Shown: positions 25,243 to 45,051 of the stretch, piece by piece
Numbering within the stretch: the stretch's first letter is position 1
Layout: each line of letters starts with the position of its first letter
IMG/VR virus record: IMGVR_UViG_3300007734_000720
Coordinates: 1-51,071 of that record
Length of the DNA: 51,071 nucleotides
Strand: one strand, 5' to 3'
DNA from: a virus
Position numbers and translations under genes: made by a program
The notes under the pieces: generated by a model
What the model saw: only the letters and a program-made list of their open reading frames with translations
Database searches by the model: none
Told to the model about the DNA's origin: nothing

Positions 25243-25503
25243 ATGGCTTCTGTGGTAAATAAAAGAAATGTACCCACTGGTGTTGCCAGCGTGTACATAG
25301 GTCGCCCCAGTAAGTGGGGCAACCCGTTCCCCTTGTATGGGGAACAGTTTAGAGATGAAGTTATTGCTCAATATGAGCAATACCTTCTGAATTCACCAGA
25401 ATTGCTAGCGCAATTAGGTGAATTGAAAGGGCAAGATTTGGTGTGCTGGTGTGCGCCAAAAGCCTGCCATGGTGACATCCTTCTACGCCTTGCCAACGAA
25501 TGA
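25243..25503 (+). CDS. DUF4326-like protein, 86 aa
   Basis: VYIGRPSKWGNPF near residue 20 and CWCAPKACHGDILLRLAN near the C-terminus are the hallmarks of the DUF4326 family, common in phages and bacteria and of unknown biochemical function. Length is normal for the family. Ribosome binding site AGAAGG lies 6 bases before the ATG. The gene is isolated between structured non-coding stretches; a 7-bp stem (TGCCAAC/GTTGGCA) spans its stop codon. Confidence 0.8.
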   Translation: MASVVNKRNVPTGVASVYIGRPSKWGNPFPLYGEQFRDEVIAQYEQYLLNSPELLAQLGELKGQDLVCWCAPKACHGDILLRLANE

Positions 25504-27771: not shown

Positions 27772-28020
27772 ATGAACGGCAATGTAATCATGCTAACCAA
27801 CAACGGTTCTGTCACATCAATTCGTATTGCAACGGCATGGACTGATGACCATGACCCTATTGTAATTGATATTCCATTCAAAACACATGACGAAGCATTT
27901 TTTTACTTCAATGCTTTGTCAAACTTGTTCGAGTTACCAAACTCAATTGTTTGGTCAGATGGTGTAGCAATAAGAGAAACCAACAAACGACACACAAGGA
28001 GCAGTAATGCCACTAAATAA
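27772..28020 (+). CDS. Small protein of unknown function, 82 aa
   Basis: Unrecognised. Beta-type first half (NGNVIMLTNNGSVTSIRIATAW, DPIVIDIPFKTHDEAFFYFNALSNLF) and a polar C-terminus (NKRHTRSSNATK). It overlaps the amidoligase gene by 14 bases, so it may be its translational leader and a functional partner. GGAAAAACTC precedes ATG 27772. Confidence 0.55.
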   Translation: MNGNVIMLTNNGSVTSIRIATAWTDDHDPIVIDIPFKTHDEAFFYFNALSNLFELPNSIVWSDGVAIRETNKRHTRSSNATK

Positions 28021-29113
28021 CGAAGAAGAAGAACAGATACTCTGTTACTCAAGCGGGTGCACAAACGCAGGTGAATTCACCAACGAATACACAGACGAAT
28101 ACTACTGTGAAGCTCACAACGAAATGGTCATCGACCATTACCACGAATCAAATGATGACCACAGTGATGACTACGGTGACGATGATGACAACGAAAGTGA
28201 TGAACGCACAATCCACAGCTACGGCTATCATCCACGAGCATCATTCATGCGTTCGGATGGAACACACTCAATGTATGTTACATACTTGGACCCAAGCATG
28301 CCAGGAGAAGTGCGCTCAAACAAAAGAACAACATTCACAATGGGTTTCGAACTCGAAACACAATATGTTGGTGACAACGCATTCGGCAGAGAGATACCAA
28401 TAGAGTTGCTCAACGATGTGAACTCATCACATGAATCAGACATCTACCTCAAAGAAGATGGCTCTGTATACAACGGCTTTGAGATTGTGTCACACCCAGG
28501 TGAACTTGACTACTTCATGAATCACTTCAAATGGAAAGGCATCGAAAACCTTGCCCGCAAAGGCTTTCAAGCATGGAAACGTCCATGTTGTGGATTACAC
28601 GTGCACGTAGCCAAATCAGCATTCGCTGACACATCACACAAATTCAAGTTCATTGCATTTGTGTACAAGAACAGACCAGAAATGGTTCAACTTGCTGGTC
28701 GTGAGAGTCACGACTACGCAAGTTATGACATCAAGCGTTTCCTCAACAGCCACAGGGACTGGGTGGATGACAACGGCAAAATCATCCGACACACAAACCT
28801 AATGAAAATGGCTAAAGGTGAAGACTGTAACAACTCACGCAGTGTTGCTGTCAATATTCAAAACGAAAAAACAATCGAATTACGATTGTTCAAACCTTCA
28901 CTAAAAACAGAAACAGTCAGAGTGGCACTCCAATTCTGTGACGCACTATTCAATTACACAGAAGTAATCAGCACTTACGACATTCTACAAAAGAATGCTT
29001 TGACATTCCCAGAGTTTCGTAAATGGGTGACAGCCAACAACGAGAAATACAAAGTTCTCGACACACGCATATCAGAAAGAGTCAAAGTCAAATCAACAGG
29101 AAGAGACGTATAA
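28007..29113 (+). CDS. Putative amidoligase with N-terminal zinc-binding module, 368 aa
   Basis: Motifs match the Amidoligase_2 family (glutamine-synthetase-like fold, ATP-dependent amide bond formation): GFELET at 113-118, KEDGSVYNGFEIVSHP at 149-164, CGLHVHV at 195-201 and VNIQNEKTIELRLF at 282-295, in family order. Before this catalytic region lies a cysteine cluster C13-x4-C18-x15-C34-x2-H37 and a very acidic linker (residues 47-67, almost all Asp, Glu, Ser, Asn, His). It is one base from the glutamine amidotransferase gene, so ammonia may be delivered from glutamine to the ligase. AAGGAG precedes ATG 28007. Substrate unknown: peptide, cell-wall or protein. Confidence 0.85.
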   Translation: MPLNNEEEEQILCYSSGCTNAGEFTNEYTDEYYCEAHNEMVIDHYHESNDDHSDDYGDDDDNESDERTIHSYGYHPRASFMRSDGTHSMYVTYLDPSMPGEVRSNKRTTFTMGFELETQYVGDNAFGREIPIELLNDVNSSHESDIYLKEDGSVYNGFEIVSHPGELDYFMNHFKWKGIENLARKGFQAWKRPCCGLHVHVAKSAFADTSHKFKFIAFVYKNRPEMVQLAGRESHDYASYDIKRFLNSHRDWVDDNGKIIRHTNLMKMAKGEDCNNSRSVAVNIQNEKTIELRLFKPSLKTETVRVALQFCDALFNYTEVISTYDILQKNALTFPEFRKWVTANNEKYKVLDTRISERVKVKSTGRDV

Positions 29114-29114
29114 C

Positions 29115-30122
29115 ATGTGTCTACTCACATTCATGCCGTCCGACGTTACACCGGACATGTCACGGTTCAAAGAAGCAGCACTCAACAATGGTGATGGCTT
29201 CGGATTCGCAATTTTAGAGTCAAAAGGCTTTATAAAAGCGCATTCTATGAACTTCAACGAAGTTGCCAACAAATTCGTTGACGCTCGTGACAAGCACAAA
29301 GGTCCAGCCATATTCCACTTCAGATGGGCTACACATGGTACGGAAACAGTTGACAACTGTCATCCGTTCCTACTCGGTGATGACCCAACATCCGTTGTTG
29401 GTCACAACGGAATACTTGACGTGCAAATTCCCAAAGATGACAAACGCAGTGACACCAAAATATTCGCAGAAGACATAATGCCAGCAATCGGTGGCATCAC
29501 ATCTCTGGATGATGAAAAGTACTTCAACACAATGGAAACATGGGCAGGTGGCAACAAACTAGTCTTCCTCACCCACAATGATGACGCCAAGTTCAATTGG
29601 TACATCCTCAATGCACATCTAGGTCATTGGGACCAAGACATGTGGTGGTCAAACACATCATACAAAAAGTATGCGCCAATTGCCAGCACATACCAAGCAA
29701 CCCACTCATTGTGGGATGATGACGATTACGGCTACGAATCGTACAACAACTATCGTTGGGATTACGCAGACAGACGATACGTATCAATACATGACAACAA
29801 ACCACTTGAAATCGTCGAGTACGACGACGAAGCAGAACTATGGCAAGAAGACATTGAAGAAATAGCAATGGAAAAGTTCAAAGTGTTCATGACATACATT
29901 GACGAAGAAAGCAGTCTTGTCGAATGCTACACATGTGCTGTCGCATACACAGTTGACGATGAAATGTGGCCAACAGAATGCCCAAACTGTGATGCATGTC
30001 TACATTGTGGACACTACGGCGGATGCAACTGTTGGCTAGGTCTAGATGATTTCTTTCATCTAGCAGGTTTCCCATTACCACGTAAAAATTTATACACAAC
30101 ACAAAAGGAGATAGCAAAATGA
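29115..30122 (+). CDS. Class II glutamine amidotransferase with C-terminal zinc knuckles, 335 aa
   Basis: N-terminal MCLLTF supplies the nucleophile Cys2; HFRWATHG (68-75), NCHPF (81-85) and VGHNGIL (95-101) are the glutamine-binding and oxyanion motifs of the Ntn-type glutaminase fold. The domain covers roughly residues 1-200. The C-terminal 65 residues carry eight cysteines (C271, C274, C289, C292, C295, C298, C304, C306), enough for two zinc sites, linked by an acidic Tyr-rich segment. Such domains release ammonia from glutamine for a partner, here most simply the adjacent amidoligase. No synthase domain is fused. The next gene overlaps it by four bases. Confidence 0.88.
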   Translation: MCLLTFMPSDVTPDMSRFKEAALNNGDGFGFAILESKGFIKAHSMNFNEVANKFVDARDKHKGPAIFHFRWATHGTETVDNCHPFLLGDDPTSVVGHNGILDVQIPKDDKRSDTKIFAEDIMPAIGGITSLDDEKYFNTMETWAGGNKLVFLTHNDDAKFNWYILNAHLGHWDQDMWWSNTSYKKYAPIASTYQATHSLWDDDDYGYESYNNYRWDYADRRYVSIHDNKPLEIVEYDDEAELWQEDIEEIAMEKFKVFMTYIDEESSLVECYTCAVAYTVDDEMWPTECPNCDACLHCGHYGGCNCWLGLDDFFHLAGFPLPRKNLYTTQKEIAK

Positions 30123-30637
30123 CAACCATCAGACTCATCCCACAAGTAATGGAGTTTGATGTAGCAATCGATGCTGCATCAATGCCATCACTATTCAATC
30201 AATCGTTGGAAACAACAATCTGTGAAAAAATTGATGAGCATGTATCCAACCGAATACCAACAGCAGAAACTGTCGCAGAACAACTTGAAGGTTCAAGAGA
30301 CTTCCTACGACGCATGCGTGACTGGGTTATCGAATCAATGGACCACAATGAAATCGCAAGACAAATTGGTAATGACATCAGCGTAAGCGACATCATCGAA
30401 TCATTGGACATCAACAGCGAAACAATCCTCGGCAACCCAACATTCCTGCGTCAAATGACGGAATACACAAGATTCCGTTCTCTCGTTCAAAACGCTGTCA
30501 ACAACCTACATGAAACAATGAGCGTAGAACAAATCATTGAAGACAAAATCAATACAATGTCTGTCAACATCGCAAACGAAGTTGCCGACAAAGTCATGAC
30601 AGTAATCATCAACAGGTTCAGCAACAGAGATGTCTGA
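30119..30637 (+). CDS. Helical protein of unknown function, 172 aa
   Basis: Nearly all helix: FDVAIDAASMPSLFNQSLE, SRDFLRRMRDWVIESMDHNEIARQIGNDI, SVSDIIESLDINSETIL and MSVEQIIEDKINTMSVNIANEV. The pattern of short amphipathic helices recurs, so it may be a repeat-type or oligomeric protein. No family recognised. AAAGGAG precedes ATG and it overlaps the amidotransferase (ATGA), so it is probably made with the amidoligase pair and could be its regulator or substrate; that is inference. Confidence 0.6.
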   Translation: MTTIRLIPQVMEFDVAIDAASMPSLFNQSLETTICEKIDEHVSNRIPTAETVAEQLEGSRDFLRRMRDWVIESMDHNEIARQIGNDISVSDIIESLDINSETILGNPTFLRQMTEYTRFRSLVQNAVNNLHETMSVEQIIEDKINTMSVNIANEVADKVMTVIINRFSNRDV

Positions 30638-30893
30638 TACAAGCTGGATGATTGGAGCAATGTGCTACGGAAAACCAACACGATGGTGGTTCCCACAACA
30701 CAGAGACAAAGCAGATGATGTGTACAACTTCAGAGTGGCAAAACGCATCTGCAGCACATGCTCAGTAAAACAGCAATGCCTGGAATATGGCATAGCAACC
30801 AATTCATTCGGAGTGTGGGGTGGGATTACCCTACAAGGAAGGCATGACAGATATGGCTCAAGAGATAAAACACTGGATATGTCAAATGTGTAA
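30630..30893 (+). CDS. WhiB-family iron-sulfur transcription regulator, 87 aa
   Basis: The four [4Fe-4S] ligands C12, C41-x2-C44 and C50 (CxxC-x5-C) and the GVWGG turn (61-65) followed by a basic segment are all present. WhiB proteins are confined to Actinobacteria and their phages, so this gene points to the host. In cells they bind sigma factor region 4 and sense redox state or nitric oxide; phage versions can repress host WhiB targets. Overlaps the upstream gene by 8 bases. The C-terminal DNA-binding tail is short (RHDRYGSRDK). Confidence 0.92.
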   Translation: MSDTSWMIGAMCYGKPTRWWFPQHRDKADDVYNFRVAKRICSTCSVKQQCLEYGIATNSFGVWGGITLQGRHDRYGSRDKTLDMSNV

Positions 30894-31892: not shown

Positions 31893-32145
31893 ACCAACCC
31901 TTGATGTAACGATTACGCTTACAGAGTTAAGAGCAGTCGTCAAATCCCTATCAATCGGGACAGACCAACTAGCCAAAAAAATAAATCGCCTGGGCGATGA
32001 CAAACGAGCAGATGATGTATACGCCGAGTTTGCTGACTTGATGTCAGCAAAGAAAGAGATGGAAGAAGTCTTACTGGCAGCACTACAAGGAGAATCACTT
32101 GATAATCAAAACAATTATGGCCATGGCCATACTGCTAGGGAGTAA
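31867..32145 (+). CDS. Small helical protein, 92 aa
   Basis: Starts with MWYSLRKNEPTLDVTITLTEL, then a long amphipathic helix (QLAKKINRLGDDKRADDVYAEFADLMSAKKEMEEVLLAAL). The start is uncertain: ATG 31867 is chosen, TTG 31855 and TTG 31879 are possible. It overlaps its neighbours by 26 and 47 bases. No family recognised. Confidence 0.5.
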   Translation: MWYSLRKNEPTLDVTITLTELRAVVKSLSIGTDQLAKKINRLGDDKRADDVYAEFADLMSAKKEMEEVLLAALQGESLDNQNNYGHGHTARE

Positions 32146-32518
32146 CACCCCAAAGGAACCAAGACCAATAGTCAACTATCCACAAGCACCGCAAACAGCC
32201 AAGTGCCCGCAGTTCTGGGAAACAGCTCTACAAGTCGGGTGGAAATGGAAAGACCTGGCAGTCTTAGATAAAATCATGTTTCGAGAATCTAGATGTAATC
32301 CTCTAGCCTTCAACTCAACGGACCCAATGGGTGGCTCAAGAGGGCTTGTACAAATAAATGGCTTCTGGACACCCTGGCTCAAAGAACGAGGCGTCCTAAG
32401 CCCTCCTAAAGCGTCTGAAGGGCTGTTCAATCCCGCAGTCAACCTTCTCTCTGCACTACACATCTACAACTATGGCGTTGACAAATACGGTGACGGATGG
32501 GGACCTTGGGGTACTTGA
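32099..32518 (+). CDS. Lytic transglycosylase-like protein, 139 aa, TTG start
   Basis: The segment IMFRESRCNPLAFN with likely catalytic E63 (in FRESRC), GGSRGLVQINGFW and the helix NLLSALHIYNYG match SLT-type lytic transglycosylases that cut the glycan of peptidoglycan. The TTG at 32099 has AAGGAG 6 bases upstream. The N-terminus (MIIKTIMAMAILLGSN) is a short hydrophobic segment that could act as a signal or signal-anchor. It sits at the end of an early gene run, before the promoter at 32515, rather than in the late operon with the M15-type peptidase at 37802. Confidence 0.8.
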   Translation: MIIKTIMAMAILLGSNTPKEPRPIVNYPQAPQTAKCPQFWETALQVGWKWKDLAVLDKIMFRESRCNPLAFNSTDPMGGSRGLVQINGFWTPWLKERGVLSPPKASEGLFNPAVNLLSALHIYNYGVDKYGDGWGPWGT

Positions 32519-32542
32519 CAGAATCCACAAAATTGATATAAT
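32515..32542 (+). promoter_or_regulatory. Consensus sigma-70-type promoter
   Basis: TTGACA (32515-32520), 16-base spacer, TATAAT (32537-32542). It is the best match to the consensus I found in the window and lies at the end of the transglycosylase gene, 63 bases upstream of the replication block. A hairpin follows in the leader. Confidence 0.85.
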
Positions 32543-32604: not shown

Positions 32605-33438
32605 ATGAGAATCGAAGATAACAAAATCTTCATCCGCCAGTCTTGGCTGGGTGATGCGCTAATGTGCCCCGAACGTGCAAGACTTTCAGCCTTACACCCC
32701 GAGTCTCGCAAAGAAAACGACTCTGCCATGATGGGCACTGCCTGTCACACTGGCATTGAAGCTGTGCTCAATGAAGAAGTCACAGCCCAACACATGGGAG
32801 ACCATGCTGTGGAATCATTCCGTTGGAAAGAAAAAGAGTTGATTGAAGCAGGCAAAGCAATCAACATCACTAACACCAATCCGTCTCACTGGAACACACA
32901 CATTCGTTCAATGTGTGATGCATGGTTGCGAGATATCTATCCCAATGTGCCACTCGGTGGCACATCAGAATTCAAGTTCTCTACTCAAGTAGGAATGATT
33001 GGTGCCTACGAACTTCACTTCGAAGGAACTATGGATTACTTTCATCAAGAAAGTATTTGGGATTGGAAAACTGCTGCACGTAAATATTACCAAGCAGAAA
33101 AACAATCACAAAATATCCAATCATCTATTTACACCAAAGCAGCATATGAAATGGGGCTAATTGATTACCCAGCCACATTCAAGTTTGGTGTCATGATTCG
33201 CAATGCGTCCAGTACCGGACAAATTGTGAGTGTCAACAGAACAGAAGCCCATGGCAACTGGATTGTTGAACAAGCAACAGCATTAGCACAGATGGTGCTA
33301 ATGTACAACAATGACCCATCGGGTGGTCGATGGCTTGCCAATGACCAACACTTTCTCTGTTCGCAGAGATGGTGCCCAGTGTGGGATAAATGCAAGGGGG
33401 GCTACGTAGGCTCCGATAACGCCGAGGAGGCAGAGTAA
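32605..33438 (+). CDS. Cas4/RecB-like PD-(D/E)XK nuclease, 277 aa
   Basis: H48 (ACHTGIEAVL), D144 (EGTMDYF), D153-x-K155 (IWDWK) and a glutamine motif (SQNIQSSIYTKA) give the PD-(D/E)XK core. Four cysteines (C21 and C252, C257, C263) are placed as for an iron-sulfur cluster bridging the two ends, as in Cas4 and AddB-type nucleases. It would act as a recombination or DNA-end-processing exonuclease. It is first in the operon and TAATG-linked to the next gene. No CRISPR array is nearby, so a CRISPR role is not implied. Confidence 0.85.
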   Translation: MRIEDNKIFIRQSWLGDALMCPERARLSALHPESRKENDSAMMGTACHTGIEAVLNEEVTAQHMGDHAVESFRWKEKELIEAGKAINITNTNPSHWNTHIRSMCDAWLRDIYPNVPLGGTSEFKFSTQVGMIGAYELHFEGTMDYFHQESIWDWKTAARKYYQAEKQSQNIQSSIYTKAAYEMGLIDYPATFKFGVMIRNASSTGQIVSVNRTEAHGNWIVEQATALAQMVLMYNNDPSGGRWLANDQHFLCSQRWCPVWDKCKGGYVGSDNAEEAE

Positions 33439-33860: not shown

Positions 33861-34894
33861 TGAAAATGTCCGCAGAAGAAATTGCTGCGGGCTGGGAAAT
33901 GGTGGGGAGACACAATGTCTCCCCACTTTCCGAACACCGAATGTACACACCACTAGGTGAGTCAGTTGACTCGTTTGTCAGATGGGCTCAATCCCCACAA
34001 GAACGTATCAATCTCGGTATTGCCCGCATAGATACAGAGATGAGAGGAATTGCACCTGGAGAAATCGCCATGGTGCTTGGGTTCGCACACGGTGGCAAGA
34101 CATTATTATTACTTCACATGCTGTGCAATAACCGCGACAAGCATGTCGCGCTCTTCATCCCAGACGAACCAAGAGAACTTGTTCTCATCAAGCTCACCTG
34201 CATCACACACAACATTGACGCCAGAGTTCTTGAACAACGCATCGCAGACCATGACGAAGAAGCAATAGAACTACTACACAAGACAGCCAACGAAGACTAC
34301 CCAAACCTCGCAGTCTTTGACCAATCACTTACAGCAGGTGACATGGAGCGTGGCTACAACGAACTGTGTGATGTCTGGAATCAAGCACCAGAACTTGTTG
34401 TTGTGGACTTCTTGGACCTCATCCAAGCAGGTGAAACTGTGCCCGACAAGGCCAACTTCCTCAAAGGTTTCGGACGCAAACACGATGTACCGCTGCTTGT
34501 GTTACACCAAACCTCACGACATGCAGGTGCTGATGGTAAAAAACCAACCATGAGTTCGGGTGCATTCGGTGGTGAGCAACAAGCCACAGCAATCCTTGGT
34601 GTTCGTAGGCGCAAGTATGAAATACAAACAGAGATTAACGAACTCATCGAGAAGCTCAACAAAGGTGGCTCCGAACGCTCACAAGAGCGTTTGGAGTTCT
34701 TGCGTTACGAAGCAAAAATACATGAACACACAGTCACAGTCAACCTACTCAAAAACAAACGACCCGCCGGTCAACTTGTTGATGATGTGGATTTCGAACT
34801 CAACGCCATGACTGGTCGCATTCGTGAACTCAACGGTGAACTACCAAGACAATACAAACAGATGGGACTTGAATATGAACATCCCTATGACTGA
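33860..34894 (+). CDS. DnaB-like replicative helicase (RecA fold), 344 aa
   Basis: Walker A GFAHGGKT (74-81), Walker B LVVVDFLDLI (D183) and HQTSR (216-220) followed by a glycine/serine segment (SSGAFGGEQQ) match the DnaB/RecA C-terminal helicase domain. The N-terminal domain that binds primase is short (about 60 residues), so it resembles phage single-domain helicases. It precedes an AEP-type primase, so the two would form the replisome. Initiation and polymerisation would rely on host proteins, since no phage polymerase is visible. Confidence 0.82.
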   Translation: MKMSAEEIAAGWEMVGRHNVSPLSEHRMYTPLGESVDSFVRWAQSPQERINLGIARIDTEMRGIAPGEIAMVLGFAHGGKTLLLLHMLCNNRDKHVALFIPDEPRELVLIKLTCITHNIDARVLEQRIADHDEEAIELLHKTANEDYPNLAVFDQSLTAGDMERGYNELCDVWNQAPELVVVDFLDLIQAGETVPDKANFLKGFGRKHDVPLLVLHQTSRHAGADGKKPTMSSGAFGGEQQATAILGVRRRKYEIQTEINELIEKLNKGGSERSQERLEFLRYEAKIHEHTVTVNLLKNKRPAGQLVDDVDFELNAMTGRIRELNGELPRQYKQMGLEYEHPYD

Positions 34895-35783
34895 TGCCAT
34901 CGAAGAGTTCATGGAACTCTTCCAAGGTCGCACAGATGCATACGGCACCTGGGAAGGTGGTTCAGTAAAAGAACCAACAAACTATAAAACGTTCGCACGT
35001 CATCTATATGACGAAGAGTTCGTCGGTATCTACCCACTCAAAGATGACCACACCGTCAGGTGGGGTTGTTCTGACATTGATGTTGACAACATAGACCTCG
35101 CAAGAAATCTACAGTACGCACTTCAAGCACAAAAGATTCCAGCGTTCGTAGAAAAAACTGTCAGGGGATTCCATGTCTGGGTGTTCGCATCAGAATGGGT
35201 ATCTGCTGCAATCATGCGCAGAGCCTTCTTGGCAGCGCACGAAGCAATCAATCTAATTGCTAAAGAAGTAAACCCCAAGCAAGAACAAGCCAAAGATGTA
35301 GGTAATTACGTAAGACTACCATACCCAGGAGCAATGGTGACAACACCAACAGCACGATACATGATTGATGACAATGACCAACCAATTGAAATTGGAACAT
35401 TCATATCAGAAGCACTAGACAATCGAGTAACAGCCGACATGCTCAGACCACTAGCAGAAATGCACAGACCAAGAACAAAAACCACAATGGAAAACCTAGA
35501 TGTATCTGCATCGGTGGAAGAAGCACTCAGACATTGCTCAAGATATTCCAAACATCTATGGTTCAATGGACCACTAGAACGTCAAGACAGGTCAAACACA
35601 CTGTGTCAACTTGCCCACACAATGAACCAGTACAATGTTCCCATCAACTTCGCATACATCGTGCTCGTTGATGCAGACAAACGGTGGGGCAAATTCCACC
35701 TACGTGAAGACTGCGTAGAACAATTAGTAAAGATAATCGAAGACACCTACGGCGAAGACAACAGAACGGCATTCAGACCATGA
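34875..35783 (+). CDS. Archaeo-eukaryotic-type primase (AEP), 302 aa
   Basis: Metal-binding DxD (WGCSDIDVD, D67/D69), the GFHVW motif (98-102) with the catalytic histidine, and GNYVRLPYPG (143-152) are typical of AEP primases, which make RNA or DNA primers. The C-terminal third is helical with no zinc site seen. The start at ATG 34875 overlaps the helicase gene by 20 bases; ATG 34887 is an alternative. AEP primase beside a DnaB-like helicase is an arrangement known from phages and plasmids. Confidence 0.8.
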   Translation: MNIPMTDAIEEFMELFQGRTDAYGTWEGGSVKEPTNYKTFARHLYDEEFVGIYPLKDDHTVRWGCSDIDVDNIDLARNLQYALQAQKIPAFVEKTVRGFHVWVFASEWVSAAIMRRAFLAAHEAINLIAKEVNPKQEQAKDVGNYVRLPYPGAMVTTPTARYMIDDNDQPIEIGTFISEALDNRVTADMLRPLAEMHRPRTKTTMENLDVSASVEEALRHCSRYSKHLWFNGPLERQDRSNTLCQLAHTMNQYNVPINFAYIVLVDADKRWGKFHLREDCVEQLVKIIEDTYGEDNRTAFRP

Positions 35784-37872: not shown

Positions 37873-38320
37873 CAGGACTATCCGCCATCTCTGGCGAAAT
37901 TTCCGCATGGAGCCAATCGCCCTTGGGGGCTCCGTGAATTGTTTCCTTCTTGTAGTTTGACCAAGCATCTCTGTCGCACATCCATGCACGTCCCCACGGT
38001 GCGGGAAAATAATCAAACAATGCTTCCAGACCCAACAAGTCTGCGTTCTCCACCAACAACTTACACATTCTCACAGCCTCTCGGCGTCCATTAGGGACGC
38101 CTTTGCCCTTGCCCATGTTGCGGTAAGAAAAATCCACAGCCCTACCTGTTGCGTGAACGCTCATAGAAGTTTCAGAACCCCTCATCATCCTCACACCAAA
38201 ATCGCCGTTATTCCAAAAAGCACCATTACCAAGTTTAATTACTTCTTCAATAAACACTTTCATACCTGGGCGCAAGCCTTTGGCTGCGCCATCTTTGTTC
38301 CCCGTGTATTGCCGTTTCAT
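37802..38320 (-). CDS. M15-type D-Ala-D-Ala peptidase (likely endolysin), 172 aa
   Basis: SVHATGRAVDFS with H56 and D63, and DWLHAEIS with H138 and E140, form the zinc site and catalytic base of M15/VanY-like peptidases, which cut peptidoglycan cross-bridges or stems. No signal peptide. It is the last gene of the leftward late block and one base from the giant gene, so it is co-expressed with virion proteins; it could be a free endolysin or part of the ejected machinery. It would complement the transglycosylase at 32099. The length is short for a modular endolysin and lacks a cell-wall binding domain. Confidence 0.82.
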   Translation of the reverse strand: MKRQYTGNKDGAAKGLRPGMKVFIEEVIKLGNGAFWNNGDFGVRMMRGSETSMSVHATGRAVDFSYRNMGKGKGVPNGRREAVRMCKLLVENADLLGLEALFDYFPAPWGRAWMCDRDAWSNYKKETIHGAPKGDWLHAEISPEMADSPAKVREAFAKLVLPVAEELKPASE

Positions 38321-41300
38321 TATTTCTCCTTGGTTTGATATGTACGAACTGGTGAACCCACAAAAGACAACCAGGCATTCTTAGCAGCATCTCCCTCGCT
38401 ACCAATCAGCCTGTCACCCATCTGTACTGGTGGCACAAATCCCTTCAATATATGAATGAGTCGTTCCTTTGGGTCATCCAAAGTATTGCCAGTAAACACA
38501 GACTTACCCAAAAACTGCTCCAACGGAATCTTCAACAATGGGTTCATGTTGTTGGTATACCGAAGAGGACTAAACAACTCACCCAACTGTTGTGGCGTCC
38601 TAGTAAAACCTAAGTCCGGAGCAAGATAAAGATTGTCACCAAATGGCAATTTAATACCACCAATCTCTCGTACAAATGGGGATGGGTATTCAGATGGTTC
38701 GTAATTAGGGTCACGCATGTTTCTCATAATCGAACGGTAAATCTGATACGGCTTGGGATTCAACCATTGGTTCTGCAATTCAAATATCAAGTTGCGTGAC
38801 GTCCAAAGCCAAAATGGAACAACCTGTCGCATAACCTCATCAACTTGACTCAAGTCCTCATAGTCAAAAAACGCACGTTTAGTTCTGGCTTGTGCCATAC
38901 CAACATCCATTCCGCTCTTGGCGGAATCAAATCCAAGAACAAATCGACTGTAGTTGTCAGACTCTTGACCCCACTTGGCATTGAATCGCACAAGCTTGTT
39001 ATCCCACAAACGTGAACCACCAACAGCATCCTTAAAGTCTTCAGTAAAAATTCCACCTCCAGAGCCAAACATTGACTTTCGTGCAGTGCGCAGCACTTCA
39101 CGAACTTCAAAAGGCTTAGTTAAAACCCAATCCTCAAACTGCATTCCAGCCCTAGAAGACTTCATCCAATCAATGTACAAGGGGGTGGCTTCCATCATGT
39201 TCTTAAACTCAGCACCCATGAACACAAGTTTCACAGCGTTGGCCAATCCGTTACGCACGTGAAAACCAGGAGTCATAGTCGCATAAGCCTTAAAAAACTT
39301 TGTGTAACTACCTACATATTTGTGCATCTGCCTCAAATATTCAGGGTCATCAAATCGCTTCGCTCTATTCCACAATTCAGCAAACTCAGGTGAACCAGCA
39401 AGACCAGGATAAATACCATAATCACCTTTAACGCCCTCAGCACCATAAATACCCTTACTTAAATACTGCCAACCTTCTTCAAGGTCAGGAAAGAACTTAC
39501 GAACATTACTAGAAGCAAACTGACCAACCTGTTGACCAGCTGCATTATTAACACGACCAGACTTCTCCAAAGTATAAATAGAGTTCTGCAATCCCGCCAT
39601 AAGACGCTGCTCAACTTCAGTATTACCAAGAACAGCTACAGCAGCCTCGTACTCTGCCTGCAATTGAATTTGCCTTTGTGCAATATTCTCCAAATGAGAA
39701 AACCCAGGACCACGAGTGCCAAAAGTACGAAGCATCTCAATACCTTCATCTAAAGTCTTAACACCCTGATTATAAGAACGAGCAGAAAAAGATGTACCAG
39801 CAACACGAGTACGCACAGTAGTGCGACCAGAAGGAACAGGCCTTGATTGATTGTAGTACTTACCATCAATCTTGCTCTTAACACGAGAAGTCTTATTCAC
39901 ACGAACTGTGGGGTCAAAAGCAACGCCACGTTGCGTACTATTAATCATGTCCCGGACTTCCAACAAACGGTCTTCAAGTTTCTTAATAGCAACAGGGTCA
40001 TGTGGTTGTACCAAACCCTTAACGGAATCAAACTGAGCCTGCAAATCAGTTACAAGGTTTTGAGCCTTGGTATTCGCAGAACGTGCAGCAGCACGAGCCT
40101 TCTCCGTTGACGCATTAGATGCGTCAACAGTAACAGAAATAGATTCCAAGTCAGACTGCAAACGAGCAATAGCCTCTTCACTAGCAGTCATCGGCTTTGG
40201 GGGTGGAACAACAGTCAAAGACTCGGGAAGACGTGGAACAAGACCCAACAGGTCTGGAGAATCAACAGTCTGAATAACACCACCAAAATTGTTAGCAACC
40301 TCACTAGTAAAACCATACTCAGATGTAGAACGAGCCCACTGTTCATCACCGTACTCAACAGTCTTCAACCAACGAACAGGAGAAGTCTCATCAAAAGGAT
40401 TCTGATACACAGCAAGATAACCGAGTGCCTCCCTATTAGCCTTAGTAGCCGCAGCATCATTGACCACAAACGTTGCCTTCATATCGTCAGGAGTAATAGG
40501 ACGCCATCGAACCTCCACCCAACGACCGTTAGTCTGTCGAGCGCGAGCAAATCGTGCTCGCGGGTTCATAAGAGTCATGTCTTCTTTACGTAAAAATAAA
40601 CGACCAGAAGAAGTACCATCGTCGTATCGACGATAAGTACCAACATCAGAGGGTCGAACATCAGGGACCATAACAACCTGATTAGTCGCGGGGTCTATAA
40701 CATTCTGACCCTTAACCTTCTTTGGCTTCATCCTAAGTTCAAGAGAAACAGGCAAACCATTCGAAGATGCAGACTTCCGCTGAATACCAAGAGCATCCTC
40801 ACGAACCCTAATCATCTGCCTAATACCATCGGACTTAATCTCAGTAGTCTCAACACCCATACTTCGCATTTGTTTAAGGGTCTCAATCTCGTGCAACAAC
40901 TGCTCACGCGACTTTTGCTCAAAAGGAGTATGAACAATTATATTGTCAACATCATCAGCAAAACGTTTTGCATTTGCCAATTCAACTTGAAACTTGTAAC
41001 TCACTGCTTCATCGGGATTCGTGCCAGTAAACTCATATCCAAGTCTGGCTCGAAGTTTGTCTAAACCTCTAGAATCAACAGGGCCTTCAGGACCCACAAC
41101 AACAACATCATTGATGGCAGCATCAACCTCGGTACCAAAACTCCGACGTTCCGTCTCAACCGATGCAGCCAACTCCTCTAAATTATTTTTCTTAAGTTCG
41201 GCCTGAATAATAGACAATTTAGAAAAAGCATCATCAAGAACGGTAGGTGTGTAAACAGCATCTACGGTTGCTTGTCTAACCTCACCACGCAAGTTCGCTT

Positions 41301-44300
41301 GCTCCGACTTAAGTACATCAATATTTCCTACAATAACCTTTTGAGCATCAGCAATCTGAACAGGAGTAGCAGACTTAACACCATTACCAAGAACAGCAGC
41401 AGCAAGTTCTTCTTGTCTCTTAAGAAGAATACGTTCGCCAGAACTACCCCAAAACTTTTCAATAATACTCCGATTAGCAGATGCAGTATCATGACTCGCA
41501 ATCAAAACACCACTAAGAGCATCTTGCTGTCGAAGATAATCAACCAAATAATGCAAAGAACGCTCGTAAGATATTTTGTCAACACCATCACGAACCAGCA
41601 TCTCAGGATTAGTAATACGCAAAACTGCTTCCGTATGCGCCCAATCAGTAATAGAGGTAACAATCTGACCAACCTCTTCATGTTGAACAAAAATGTTTCT
41701 CCAAAACTTAGCCGAAGGAATCGTCAAAGGAACATCTCCACCAAGAGACTGCGCAGCACGCAAAGTAGGTGGAGCCACGCGACCGCCAAAAGTCCAATCA
41801 ACATTGTGTCCATTTAATTCGGAAAGGATAATCAAAGAAGCACTACGATTATGAGCAGACTTAGCCAAAGAATACTCAGGAGACTGCATCAAAATATTAA
41901 GGTCATTCTGTGCCTGAGCAACAGGAATAACAGGCTCAGGAAGCCTCTTGCCAACAGGTGTAGGAACAGAACGCACACGAACACTCTCATTCAAACGCAC
42001 AGCCAAATCATTGGAAATCTTTTCCAAATCAGCAATCTCCATCTCAACGCGAACGCCATCATCAACATACTTACCAAAATCACGACCTTTAGAAATCAAA
42101 GTAACATTCTTCTTAAAAATATCCTGCGTAATCGAATCACCCAAATCAACTCCATAGTAAGCAAACACTTCTCGCAAGTGTGCTAACTCAATTGATGTCT
42201 TTTGTTGTGCAACCAAAACACGAACCTTCAACAAAGACTCTGTATAATCGGAAGAACGAGTAATACTATTCTTAACCAAGTCAAGAGCAATCTGATAATC
42301 ATCAGAAAGCTTGGCAGCACGAGCTGCCAAACGAGGGGAAACAGAAGCACGAGCTGCAGCGGCCTTAGAAGCCTTCTCTAAAGCAGAAACCTCAGCAGTA
42401 GTAGGAACACGCTGAGCAGGACGCTTGGCAGTAGCCACAACATCATTGAGTATCTCATCAATCTTGTCAGCCATGCCCGGAAAACGTTCCTTCAAGTGAA
42501 CACGCAAAGACTCAACCACAGGAGACAAGGTAGCAATGTCACGAGAACCAGTCTCACCCAAACGAGCCACAACACTGTCAATCTGTTCCAAACTATGTAC
42601 AGCCTTTGTCGGAATGACAGGTTGACCAACACCCAACTTCCTGACAACATTAATAACTTCTGCGTAAAGACTATCTTTCGACAAAGCAGAAAAATTAGCA
42701 AGAGGAGAAAGATATGCAGAAACATCCATAAGTTGTTCCTGTGAACGTGCATGAAAAGCAGCGTCCTCTGTGTACTTCTCAAACTTCGTAAGAAACTCAG
42801 CAACAGCCTGATTGTGCTCAGGTGATGACTCAGCAGCACGAAGAGCAAGACCTTCTTCGGAAAGGTCTTTGAAACGCTTCTGTAAATTACCAGACTCAAC
42901 AGCATGTTTAGCGTAAACAGTAAAACCATCTGTGTCTGGCAACATGCCAGCAATAACACCATCAGCACGTACCATTTCAGCATGCTTCATCGCGGCATCA
43001 GCCATCGCTGTATTCAGATAACCCAACAGCTCAGCAACATCTGCTTCACTCACAGCGGGATTCTTGAGTGCAATCAAAGCAGCATCCATACTGCCATACT
43101 TCAATTCAAGCTGTGACTTCAAAACATCAAGAGCTTCTCGTAAACCAGAATGCAAATTCTGAATAGCAGTCAAAACCGCCTCAAACGCATGAGCAGAATT
43201 CTTGTGCATCTGTTTTATATATTCAGGTGCAATACCAAAATAACCTTCAACTAATTTCACAAACTCAGGAGTCTTTTTAAACTCATTCATCATGGCAACA
43301 TTAGACATCATGTTTGCATGACCACGAATATAAGCAGGAACAATATTCCTCATGTCAGTATCAAAAGCATCAAAAACAGGACGACCCTGACTACGCAACC
43401 AAGTATTGACAATTTCATTCAAATTGTCAATAGTCAAATCTTCTTGTCTAAGAATTGTATTAAAGAATGAAGAACCCTCCTTTAAACCACGTTGCCTAAA
43501 GTTACCAACAATGTGCAATGCGCTGCCATCATCCGGCAACAAACCAGCCATAGCGGGATTAGTCCTAACTTCGTCCATCAACTCAACAAACTGCGGAGTA
43601 GAGTTATGCGGTAAATAACCTTTCTGATAACCAATAACATGGTCGGGAACAACAGTCTGCCATGCTTCATCAGTAACCTGATGAAGCTCTTCCATAACAG
43701 TACGAAACCGTTGAGCCAAATCCAAATGCTCAGGAGAAAGACCAAGTTGCGCAGCCTTGTCAATCATCGCCTGACCACTCTCAACATTGTCTAACAAATG
43801 TCGAACAGGGTTATTCTCTGGCTTCATAACCTCTTCACGCAACTGACCCAAACGCTGAACAGCTGCAAAATCTGCTTCGGAAAAACCAATACGACGAATA
43901 TCATCGGCATTCAAAATAACTCGTGCAAGCTGTGCCTGCTCATCTGACAAAGAACCATTAGCCAAAGCAACACGATACTTCTTAATAGTACCTTCACCAA
44001 AGTACTCAATAGCACCAACACCACGAGGTGTTATCGCACGATGCAAAGCATCAATACCCTTAGTCTGAACAAAACCAAGACGAGTACGAGTGATACCACG
44101 CTCAAGAAACTTACCAACTACATCACTACCGGGAACTTTAACACGACTCCCAAAATAATAAACACCAGGTCCCTTAATACCAAGTTCCTTGGCAATAATG
44201 TCTGGAACATTTTGTTTACCCTGCAAAGCAATATTGCGATACGCAGATGCTATTTCTTCTTTGGAAAAATTAGCAAGACCAGTCTTGGTCATCCATTCCA

Positions 44301-45051
44301 TACGTTGCTGCGTAAAAACAGCAAGCTTCTCTCTACCCTCACGACCAATAACACTCTTTGCAGCAGCACGACCAGAACCCTTAACACCAAACAAAGCCCT
44401 GCGAGCAGAAGTCTCATAAAGGTCTTCACCCAACTTAGTAACACCAACCTTGGCTAACTGTTCAGCAGAAGCCTTCTCAACACCACCCTCAATCAAATGA
44501 GAAAGTTGAGAACCAGACAATCTAATAGTACCTTTAGCGGCAATTGTGCCACCCAAAGTAGCCCAAGTCAAAGGGTCTAATGCAACATCTCCAACTAAAC
44601 CAACAATACGACCAGCCCAACCCTTCATTGGAAACGCCTTGCCAAAACCATAATCAAACTGTTTTGTCTGATTCAAAAAATCCCCAAACGAAGCTTTCGT
44701 ATTAGGGTCACTATCCATTGTGTCAACAATTTCACGAATACCAGAAATCACAGCACGACGTGGTGTATCAAGAATCTGTAAAGGCATAAGCAAATGCTTT
44801 AACGCACTTGCATCAGCACTAGGCTTGGGTAAAGATGGCAAAGACTTCTTTATGTAAGGATTAGCATCCAATTGTGCAAGCAAATTAGATGTCTGACCTT
44901 GAGACGCAAGAGGAGAACTCTTGGTCAACCAAGAAACGTCGGGCTGCACAGCAGCACGACGCTTAACAGACAACTGAGACACTGGGTCTTTTGCAGCAAT
45001 TGCATCCAATTGTGCAACAATGTCAATCGGCTTTCCTGCAGGGTTAGCCAT
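38320..45051 (-). CDS. Giant virion protein, 2243 aa (right copy, complete)
   Basis: Complete homologue of 1-5582 with an ATG start that overlaps the 413-residue gene by 8 bases. By eye it contains long helical and coiled-coil regions (about 700-1300), a GYLPHN motif in the first quarter (QKGYLPHN), a beta-type region near 1450-1700, and a C-terminal part with YATMTPGFHVRNGLANAVKLVF, WASTSR-like aromatic stretches and a proline-rich end. The GFHxRN and GYLPH motifs recur in very large phage virion proteins that are injected with the DNA. No lytic or protease motif was recognised. At 2243 residues it takes 6.7 kb of a roughly 39.5-kb genome. Confidence 0.8.
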   Translation of the reverse strand: MANPAGKPIDIVAQLDAIAAKDPVSQLSVKRRAAVQPDVSWLTKSSPLASQGQTSNLLAQLDANPYIKKSLPSLPKPSADASALKHLLMPLQILDTPRRAVISGIREIVDTMDSDPNTKASFGDFLNQTKQFDYGFGKAFPMKGWAGRIVGLVGDVALDPLTWATLGGTIAAKGTIRLSGSQLSHLIEGGVEKASAEQLAKVGVTKLGEDLYETSARRALFGVKGSGRAAAKSVIGREGREKLAVFTQQRMEWMTKTGLANFSKEEIASAYRNIALQGKQNVPDIIAKELGIKGPGVYYFGSRVKVPGSDVVGKFLERGITRTRLGFVQTKGIDALHRAITPRGVGAIEYFGEGTIKKYRVALANGSLSDEQAQLARVILNADDIRRIGFSEADFAAVQRLGQLREEVMKPENNPVRHLLDNVESGQAMIDKAAQLGLSPEHLDLAQRFRTVMEELHQVTDEAWQTVVPDHVIGYQKGYLPHNSTPQFVELMDEVRTNPAMAGLLPDDGSALHIVGNFRQRGLKEGSSFFNTILRQEDLTIDNLNEIVNTWLRSQGRPVFDAFDTDMRNIVPAYIRGHANMMSNVAMMNEFKKTPEFVKLVEGYFGIAPEYIKQMHKNSAHAFEAVLTAIQNLHSGLREALDVLKSQLELKYGSMDAALIALKNPAVSEADVAELLGYLNTAMADAAMKHAEMVRADGVIAGMLPDTDGFTVYAKHAVESGNLQKRFKDLSEEGLALRAAESSPEHNQAVAEFLTKFEKYTEDAAFHARSQEQLMDVSAYLSPLANFSALSKDSLYAEVINVVRKLGVGQPVIPTKAVHSLEQIDSVVARLGETGSRDIATLSPVVESLRVHLKERFPGMADKIDEILNDVVATAKRPAQRVPTTAEVSALEKASKAAAARASVSPRLAARAAKLSDDYQIALDLVKNSITRSSDYTESLLKVRVLVAQQKTSIELAHLREVFAYYGVDLGDSITQDIFKKNVTLISKGRDFGKYVDDGVRVEMEIADLEKISNDLAVRLNESVRVRSVPTPVGKRLPEPVIPVAQAQNDLNILMQSPEYSLAKSAHNRSASLIILSELNGHNVDWTFGGRVAPPTLRAAQSLGGDVPLTIPSAKFWRNIFVQHEEVGQIVTSITDWAHTEAVLRITNPEMLVRDGVDKISYERSLHYLVDYLRQQDALSGVLIASHDTASANRSIIEKFWGSSGERILLKRQEELAAAVLGNGVKSATPVQIADAQKVIVGNIDVLKSEQANLRGEVRQATVDAVYTPTVLDDAFSKLSIIQAELKKNNLEELAASVETERRSFGTEVDAAINDVVVVGPEGPVDSRGLDKLRARLGYEFTGTNPDEAVSYKFQVELANAKRFADDVDNIIVHTPFEQKSREQLLHEIETLKQMRSMGVETTEIKSDGIRQMIRVREDALGIQRKSASSNGLPVSLELRMKPKKVKGQNVIDPATNQVVMVPDVRPSDVGTYRRYDDGTSSGRLFLRKEDMTLMNPRARFARARQTNGRWVEVRWRPITPDDMKATFVVNDAAATKANREALGYLAVYQNPFDETSPVRWLKTVEYGDEQWARSTSEYGFTSEVANNFGGVIQTVDSPDLLGLVPRLPESLTVVPPPKPMTASEEAIARLQSDLESISVTVDASNASTEKARAAARSANTKAQNLVTDLQAQFDSVKGLVQPHDPVAIKKLEDRLLEVRDMINSTQRGVAFDPTVRVNKTSRVKSKIDGKYYNQSRPVPSGRTTVRTRVAGTSFSARSYNQGVKTLDEGIEMLRTFGTRGPGFSHLENIAQRQIQLQAEYEAAVAVLGNTEVEQRLMAGLQNSIYTLEKSGRVNNAAGQQVGQFASSNVRKFFPDLEEGWQYLSKGIYGAEGVKGDYGIYPGLAGSPEFAELWNRAKRFDDPEYLRQMHKYVGSYTKFFKAYATMTPGFHVRNGLANAVKLVFMGAEFKNMMEATPLYIDWMKSSRAGMQFEDWVLTKPFEVREVLRTARKSMFGSGGGIFTEDFKDAVGGSRLWDNKLVRFNAKWGQESDNYSRFVLGFDSAKSGMDVGMAQARTKRAFFDYEDLSQVDEVMRQVVPFWLWTSRNLIFELQNQWLNPKPYQIYRSIMRNMRDPNYEPSEYPSPFVREIGGIKLPFGDNLYLAPDLGFTRTPQQLGELFSPLRYTNNMNPLLKIPLEQFLGKSVFTGNTLDDPKERLIHILKGFVPPVQMGDRLIGSEGDAAKNAWLSFVGSPVRTYQTKEK

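Follow-up and report, generated by a model that had tools for sequence, protein, structure and literature searches.

An adjacent amidoligase and class II glutamine amidotransferase encoded by a virus: a candidate two-protein amidotransferase with cysteine-rich modules

What reaction would two enzymes encoded side by side in a viral genome carry out together, and on which acceptor? The question is raised by a virus record of 51,071 bases, analysed here over its whole length (the window), in which an amidoligase gene (28007-29113) is followed on the same, forward strand by a gene for a class II glutamine amidotransferase (GATase; 29115-30122). The window has a leftward block of head and packaging genes (portal, major head protein, terminase) and a rightward block at about 24-37 kb that codes for a DnaB-like helicase, a PD-(D/E)XK exonuclease, an AEP-type primase, RusA, and a sigma-like protein; the two genes lie in this rightward block, together with the DNA-replication genes and among short genes, much as the earlier note had placed them. 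Judging from the WhiB protein that the window encodes, the host is probably actinobacterial.

The pair makes up the second and third members of a string of five open reading frames (27772-28020, 28007-29113, 29115-30122, 30119-30637, and 30630-30893) that overlap or nearly touch. The amidoligase stop codon TAA occupies 29111-29113 and the GATase ATG starts at 29115, leaving 29114 as the only spacer and bearing out the one-base separation that had been reported for the two genes. A putative ribosome-binding site, AAGGAG (27996-28001), lies 5 nt ahead of the amidoligase ATG, while a ribosome-binding-site-like AGGAAGAG within the 3' end of the amidoligase gene (29098-29105) lies 9 nt ahead of the GATase ATG, and the fourth frame is preceded by a sequence of the same kind. 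Because the frames overlap or nearly touch and carry these signals, the string from 27772 to 30893 looks like one translationally coupled unit. The fourth frame (30119-30637), a 172-aa gene with no assigned function, overlaps the GATase stop by 4 nt at its start; its homologues occur near the pair in 27 of the 64 non-redundant viral loci, and it is a possible third member of the system in the lineage of the window. The last gene of the string codes for a WhiB-like regulator (30630-30893; PF02467, E 4e-13), homologues of which accompany the pair in 41 of the same 64 loci, spread over the two main phage branches of the amidoligase tree.

The surroundings of the string include several further features. 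A DUF4326 protein (PF14216, E 9e-24) is encoded at 25243-25503, and a role in processing ADP-ribose products has been proposed for this family (PMC9503650). A role in DNA modification was considered for the pair and set aside, as no supporting neighbour was present among the genes scanned and the nearby DUF4326 protein is tied to ADP-ribose processing instead. An SLT/lysozyme-like protein is encoded within the replication block (32099-32518) and has homologues near the pair in 28 of the 64 viral loci; a perfect 12/12 consensus sigma-70 promoter (TTGACA-16-TATAAT, extended TG) at 32515-32542 stands directly before the exonuclease gene at 32605; the primase beside the DnaB-like helicase is of the AEP-TOTE/PrimPol type (34824-35783); and a reading frame of 2243 aa without an assigned role, which exceeds all others in the record by a wide margin, occupies 38320-45051 on the reverse strand.

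The 368-aa product of the first gene is an Amidoligase_2 protein with a predicted glutamine-synthetase-like fold, an identity that had been proposed from its motifs and is retained here. Specifically, it scores 25.7 bits against PF12224, above the gathering cut-off of 22 (25.6 bits in a six-frame search of the genome), and the motifs GFELET, CGLHVHV, and TIELRLF are present at residues 113-118, 195-201, and 289-295, respectively. An AlphaFold2 model built from 25 relatives (pLDDT 82.5, pTM 0.81) has YbdK as its closest solved structure (Foldseek E 8e-7), followed by many glutamine synthetases; with VIA-align, YbdK and the Salmonella homologue 1tt4 reach Z 11.6 (rmsd 4.0-4.1 over ~220 residues), glutamine synthetases and their relatives Z 9.7-10.9, and a plant glutamate-cysteine ligase is also among the nearest folds. 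A PDB sequence search with the single amidoligase returned chance matches alone, and hhalign paired CGLHVHV with the GQHVHVG of YbdK at low probability, with no significant sequence link to YbdK beyond the HVHV motif, so that this relationship rests on the fold. Nine residues are invariant among 25-28 relatives (alignments A1 and A3), namely E115, E117, D151, E159, H198, H200, N283, E291, and R293, and they probably correspond to the positions known in glutamine synthetase as ExE, His, and ExR. Among them, E115-x-E117 (28349-28357) would be the metal/ATP site of the glutamine-synthetase type, H198-x-H200 (28598-28606) belongs to CGLHVHV, and E291-x-R293 within TIELR (28877-28885) is the putative ExR. 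On the strength of fold and residues, the protein would be expected to form amide bonds in an ATP-dependent manner.

The 335-aa product of the second gene is a class II (Ntn) glutamine amidotransferase with Cys2 as the predicted nucleophile, in keeping with the earlier reading, and the motifs HFRWATHG and VGHNGIL on which that reading was built are present at residues 68-75 and 95-101. Its best NCBIfam matches are GlmS profiles (E 2e-7), with PurF next, and it also matches phrog_25883 (E 2e-38) and the GlmS glutaminase structure 1xff (E 3e-5). The assignment is at the level of the superfamily only, as the score of 21.1 bits against Pfam GATase_4 (PF13230) just misses the cut-off of 23, and the match to the whole-enzyme GlmS profile of NCBIfam (29.8 bits against a cut-off of 418) fails and is limited to the glutaminase core. 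The confidence of the AlphaFold2 model is likewise confined to the Ntn core in the first ~185 residues, which matches GlmS (Z 12.9, rmsd 3.5 over 170 residues), EgtC (Z 12.0), and PurF (Z 11.9). All 23 aligned relatives start with M1-C2, and C2, R70, T73, H74, G75, N98, G99, and D113 are invariant; four of these residues (R70, N98, G99, and D113) align with R73, N98, G99, and D123 of the GlmS glutamine site. A glutaminase that feeds its partner would be in line with these features. The profile search with PF12224 and the class II GATase families, which the earlier note had put forward as a check, thus yields family matches for both proteins, with folds and catalytic residues as expected.

Beyond their catalytic domains, both proteins carry cysteine-rich modules that had not formed part of the earlier description. 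The amidoligase begins with a zinc-finger-like segment at residues 13-37 (C-x4-C-x15-C-x2-H; 28043-28117), in which C13, C18, and C34 are invariant in 25 relatives and which gives a weak LIM-domain match (E 0.27); two C-x2-C pairs occupy this position in many relatives and several occupy it in more distant ones, among 64 pairs. The GATase ends with an eight-cysteine tail at residues 271-307 (29925-30035), a probable double zinc ribbon in the order CxxC, CxxC, CxxC, CxC (C271, 274, 289, 292, 295, 298, 304, and 306), whose cysteines are invariant in the 20 rows of alignment A4 and conserved to 90% or more in the 23 relatives of alignment A2. Finger and tail may both bind metal. The tail, similarly spaced, is found again in phage GATases further removed from that of the window and in GATases encoded on actinobacterial chromosomes. 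Clostridial GATases are without it, and at two clostridial loci (L064 and L108) the N-termini of the amidoligases are CxxC-rich when read by eye; in phiEco32 and LUZ24 the amidoligase lacks the N-terminal finger and CxxC motifs are found at the C-terminus of the GATase instead. The modules are therefore carried by different partners in different lineages, a distribution that is suggestive only, and that would fit a single complex in which they may serve assembly or substrate capture.

The constancy of the arrangement is an argument for a joint function. In a GATase-seeded search, an amidoligase stands directly upstream in 45 of 45 viral contigs; a broader GATase profile search finds it upstream at 79 of 80 loci, the exception being a contig that starts inside the gene; and in the viral loci of the first three scans the amidoligase has the GATase behind it in 122 of 123 cases, the remaining one being cut by the contig end. 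These three counts come from overlapping sets. The link between amidoligases and class II GATases in phages, to which the earlier note had pointed, is supported. On bacterial genome contigs, mainly of actinobacteria and clostridia, the GATase is found downstream within ~0.4 kb at all 72 usable loci, a count from which 3 loci truncated at contig ends and 5 giant reading frames are left out. Over 64 non-redundant viral pairs, the intergenic distance ranges from -20 to +84 nt, and in most actinobacterial pairs the genes overlap by 13 nt. Since the GATase follows the amidoligase at nearly every viral and usable bacterial locus, the pair is a real unit.

Protein distances of amidoligase and GATase correlate with r 0.91 over 60 pairs, and in subsets the pair value (0.87-0.93) exceeds that of the amidoligase with five neighbouring genes (0.64-0.88), in one case narrowly; for the exonuclease, the GATase value is nearly equal (0.868 against 0.873). 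The correlation is a modest argument for the unit, given that neighbouring genes correlate too. Both genes appear to be under purifying selection because dN/dS is low in both (~0.07-0.19 in comparisons with close relatives, for which dS is near saturation or beyond it).

A neighbouring GATase is nonetheless not obligatory in all relatives, since some of them occur with no GATase detected. The Clostridioides phage AR1086-1 carries a relative of the amidoligase (L053 3740-4852) with no GATase within flanks of ~4 kb, and five Pseudonocardia loci (L063, 1-12588; L061; L114; L123; L134) contain one or two amidoligase domains inside frames of ~3000-4500 aa, mostly running off both ends of the fetched stretch, which are possibly giant multidomain proteins and with which no GATase was detected. 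The gene after the amidoligase of AR1086-1 looks like a nucleotidyltransferase. No fused amidoligase-GATase protein was present in the set of reading frames searched, and the PADLOC defence models gave no match for the pair.

Variations on the arrangement were observed in passing. Three amidoligase-GATase pairs stand in tandem in Nocardia vaccinii (L066 1797-9026) and two in Nocardia thailandica (L097 5356-9482), and in several related phages a second, shorter amidoligase lies upstream (L008 3134-3940, L016 3632-4447, L017 3617-4423, L023 3145-3957, and L031 3742-4392), without the N-terminal finger and with motifs of the GFELE, G-x-HIH, and E-x-R type retained. A contig binned as Lokiarchaeota (L069) also carries the pair, next to reading frames that resemble SSB and a replicative helicase by eye; the use of this occurrence as an argument against a cell-wall target was dropped, as the contig may be a misbinned phage.

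The reading that best accommodates these results, to which a probability of roughly 0.6 is given, is that the two proteins form one glutamine-dependent amidotransferase that amidates a carboxylate. The N-terminal cysteine of the GATase (Cys2, exposed upon removal of Met1) would hydrolyse glutamine to glutamate and ammonia, the amidoligase with its glutamine-synthetase fold would activate the carboxylate with ATP as an acyl phosphate, and the attack of ammonia on the acyl phosphate would yield a primary amide. This reading is supported by both predicted folds, by the conservation of the residues, by the strictness with which the genes are paired, and by purifying selection; complex formation, ammonia transfer, and the use of ATP are predicted parts of it. 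The literature provided no experiment on any member of the pair family. As counterpoint, the Ntn core of the GATase also resembles EgtC, an enzyme that cleaves a gamma-glutamyl bond and does not feed a ligase.

If the pair amidates a carboxylate, three classes of acceptor share the probability at roughly one third each: the host envelope, a carboxylate on a protein or peptide, and a small metabolite. At the envelope, the acceptors would perhaps be carboxylates of cell-wall peptides, modified for superinfection exclusion; for a small molecule, nothing specific speaks in its favour. The proposals on the target overlap in their confidence with the two-protein amidotransferase and are not mutually exclusive with it.

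The first of them, which can be held tentatively, sees in the pair a relative, or a reduced version, of the cell-wall cassette of seven genes carried by the phages phiEco32, LUZ24, and RIO-1, modifying the envelope with fewer genes. The same order of amidoligase and GATase is found in LUZ24 (gp18-gp19) and phiEco32 (gp84-gp83), and the cassette has been termed peptidoglycan-modifying, as a hypothesis (PMC5498523, PMC6256558), with an envelope-type role proposed in print for the larger cassette and for the pair (PMC5498523, PMC6256558, PMC10580990). The frequent WhiB neighbour of the pair (41 of 64 loci) points in the same direction, as the WhiB protein of phage TM4 has been linked to superinfection exclusion (PMC8612146), although this argument is weak because WhiB is a general mark of actinophages (PMC10202952). 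Against the proposal, similarity is weak (18.6 bits to the phiEco32 amidoligase and 1.7 to that of LUZ24), the cell-wall role of the cassette is itself a hypothesis in the literature, and the record, possibly a fragment, gives no match to the COOH-NH2 ligase (PF14395) or to the GGACT gamma-glutamyl cyclotransferase (PF06094). The cell-wall prediction was built on a cassette that includes both of these genes, and the present results do not distinguish between host peptidoglycan, a host protein, and a small molecule, the three acceptors suggested in the earlier note.

A doubtful proposal, by analogy with the logic of GatCAB, is that the pair may modify a macromolecule, such as a host or phage protein or an RNA-bound substrate, recognised by the cysteine modules. 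Zinc-finger-like modules on both proteins, and on different partners across lineages, would suit such recognition; on the other hand, the modules may merely hold the complex together, and clostridial GATases do without the tail.

The resemblance to EgtC leads to a different reaction, a pathway that makes and breaks gamma-glutamyl bonds. Gamma-glutamylcysteine ligase joins an acid to an amine, and in ergothioneine synthesis EgtA and EgtC make and break a gamma-glutamyl intermediate. Correspondingly, the amidoligase would join glutamate or another acid to an amine and the Ntn protein would later cleave the gamma-glutamyl intermediate. YbdK and the plant glutamate-cysteine ligase are among the closest folds to the amidoligase, the Ntn core ties between EgtC and GlmS (Z 12.0 and 12.9), the larger phage cassette includes a gamma-glutamyl cyclotransferase, and a GATase-like protein of phage C75C1 is annotated as a cyclotransferase. 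This pathway is nevertheless unlikely, in that the best NCBIfam sequence matches of the GATase are to GlmS and then PurF, its RWATHG motif and aligned residues are of the GlmS type, and the window contains no GGACT cyclotransferase. The protein of phage C75C1 (L054 4001-4897), whose annotation is gamma-glutamyl cyclotransferase and whose C-terminal part looks cyclotransferase-like by eye, is possibly a natural GATase-cyclotransferase fusion.

More speculative, and improbable at present, is the idea that the pair is a mobile amidating machine of two proteins, directed by its cysteine modules towards a macromolecule such as a host protein and not towards the cell wall; it would represent a viral system of post-translational amidation that phages have in common with bacterial genomes, and giant Pseudonocardia proteins would have incorporated the amidoligase domain as well. 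Passive metabolic cargo, such as for nitrogen or glutamine metabolism, with no dedicated acceptor in the conflict of phage and host, would fit the report of the pair as auxiliary metabolic genes in OM43 phages (PMC10580990), but is very improbable in view of the strict pairing and the retention across large sequence distances and on bacterial contigs, which speak for a specific reaction.

The two-protein amidotransferase remains the preferred reading. The pairing is unusually regular in these phages, yet no report testing what the pair modifies was found in the literature consulted, where the substrate is a guess. Amidation of cell-wall peptides, if true, would explain how such phages shield their host from competitors, and amidation of a protein would be a novel route by which a virus alters its host. 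The pair is compact and Marvin-type mycobacteriophages have been isolated, so that a laboratory strain can be used to address the question. The present analysis adds the zinc-finger-like N-terminus of the amidoligase, the conserved eight-cysteine tail of the GATase, the occurrence of such modules on differing partners, the wide spread of the pair, and the frequent proximity of a WhiB gene (41 of 64 non-redundant viral loci).

The gene pair as such is not new, as its order is shared with Marvin, with the OM43 phages, and with the core of the LUZ24/phiEco32 cassette. Mycobacteriophage Marvin (cluster S) carries the same two genes, gp105 and gp106, in the same order and on the same strand as the window; the window amidoligase is matched at 31.5% identity over 67% of its length and the GATase at 42% over 55%, and the Marvin GATase has the eight-cysteine tail as well; it differs by a gap of 79 nt, against 1 in the window, and by an amidoligase of 453 aa as annotated. 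The Marvin pair occupies the right end of its 65-kb genome, and both products are annotated merely as glutamine amidotransferase domain proteins. In the OM43 phages MEP401 and MEP402, with a marine Methylophilales host, the pair is adjacent, a short distance upstream of primase and helicase, and has been named as PF12224 and GATase (PMC10580990); the amidoligase has ~548 aa and the GATase lacks the cysteine tail. The seven-gene cassette of LUZ24, phiEco32, RIO-1, and PA11, which citing papers attribute to Iyer et al. 2009, has amidoligase then GATase as its core in LUZ24 and phiEco32, in the order seen here, and the window carries these core genes only; the Pfam scan, which covered early genes, gave no match to a RimK-type ATP-grasp ligase.

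Among cellular enzymes, the glutaminase domains of GlmS and PurF share with the window GATase the Ntn fold, Cys2, and the equivalents of R70, N98, G99, and D113, whereas the window protein has a cysteine tail in place of a sugar isomerase or phosphoribosyl domain. YbdK, the glutamate-cysteine ligases, and glutamine synthetase have the fold and the ELE, HVH, and EVR-type motifs in common with the window amidoligase, which differs from this group by an identity of only 10-15%, an extra N-terminal finger, and a partner GATase. In GatCAB, an amidase subunit supplies the ammonia used by another subunit, the one that activates Glu-tRNA; the amidase, GatA, is of an unrelated type, and the likeness to the pair is one of logic only, namely an amidase with a carboxylate-activating subunit. 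Set against these known systems, the cysteine modules may be new, and so may the distribution of the pair over bacterial contigs.
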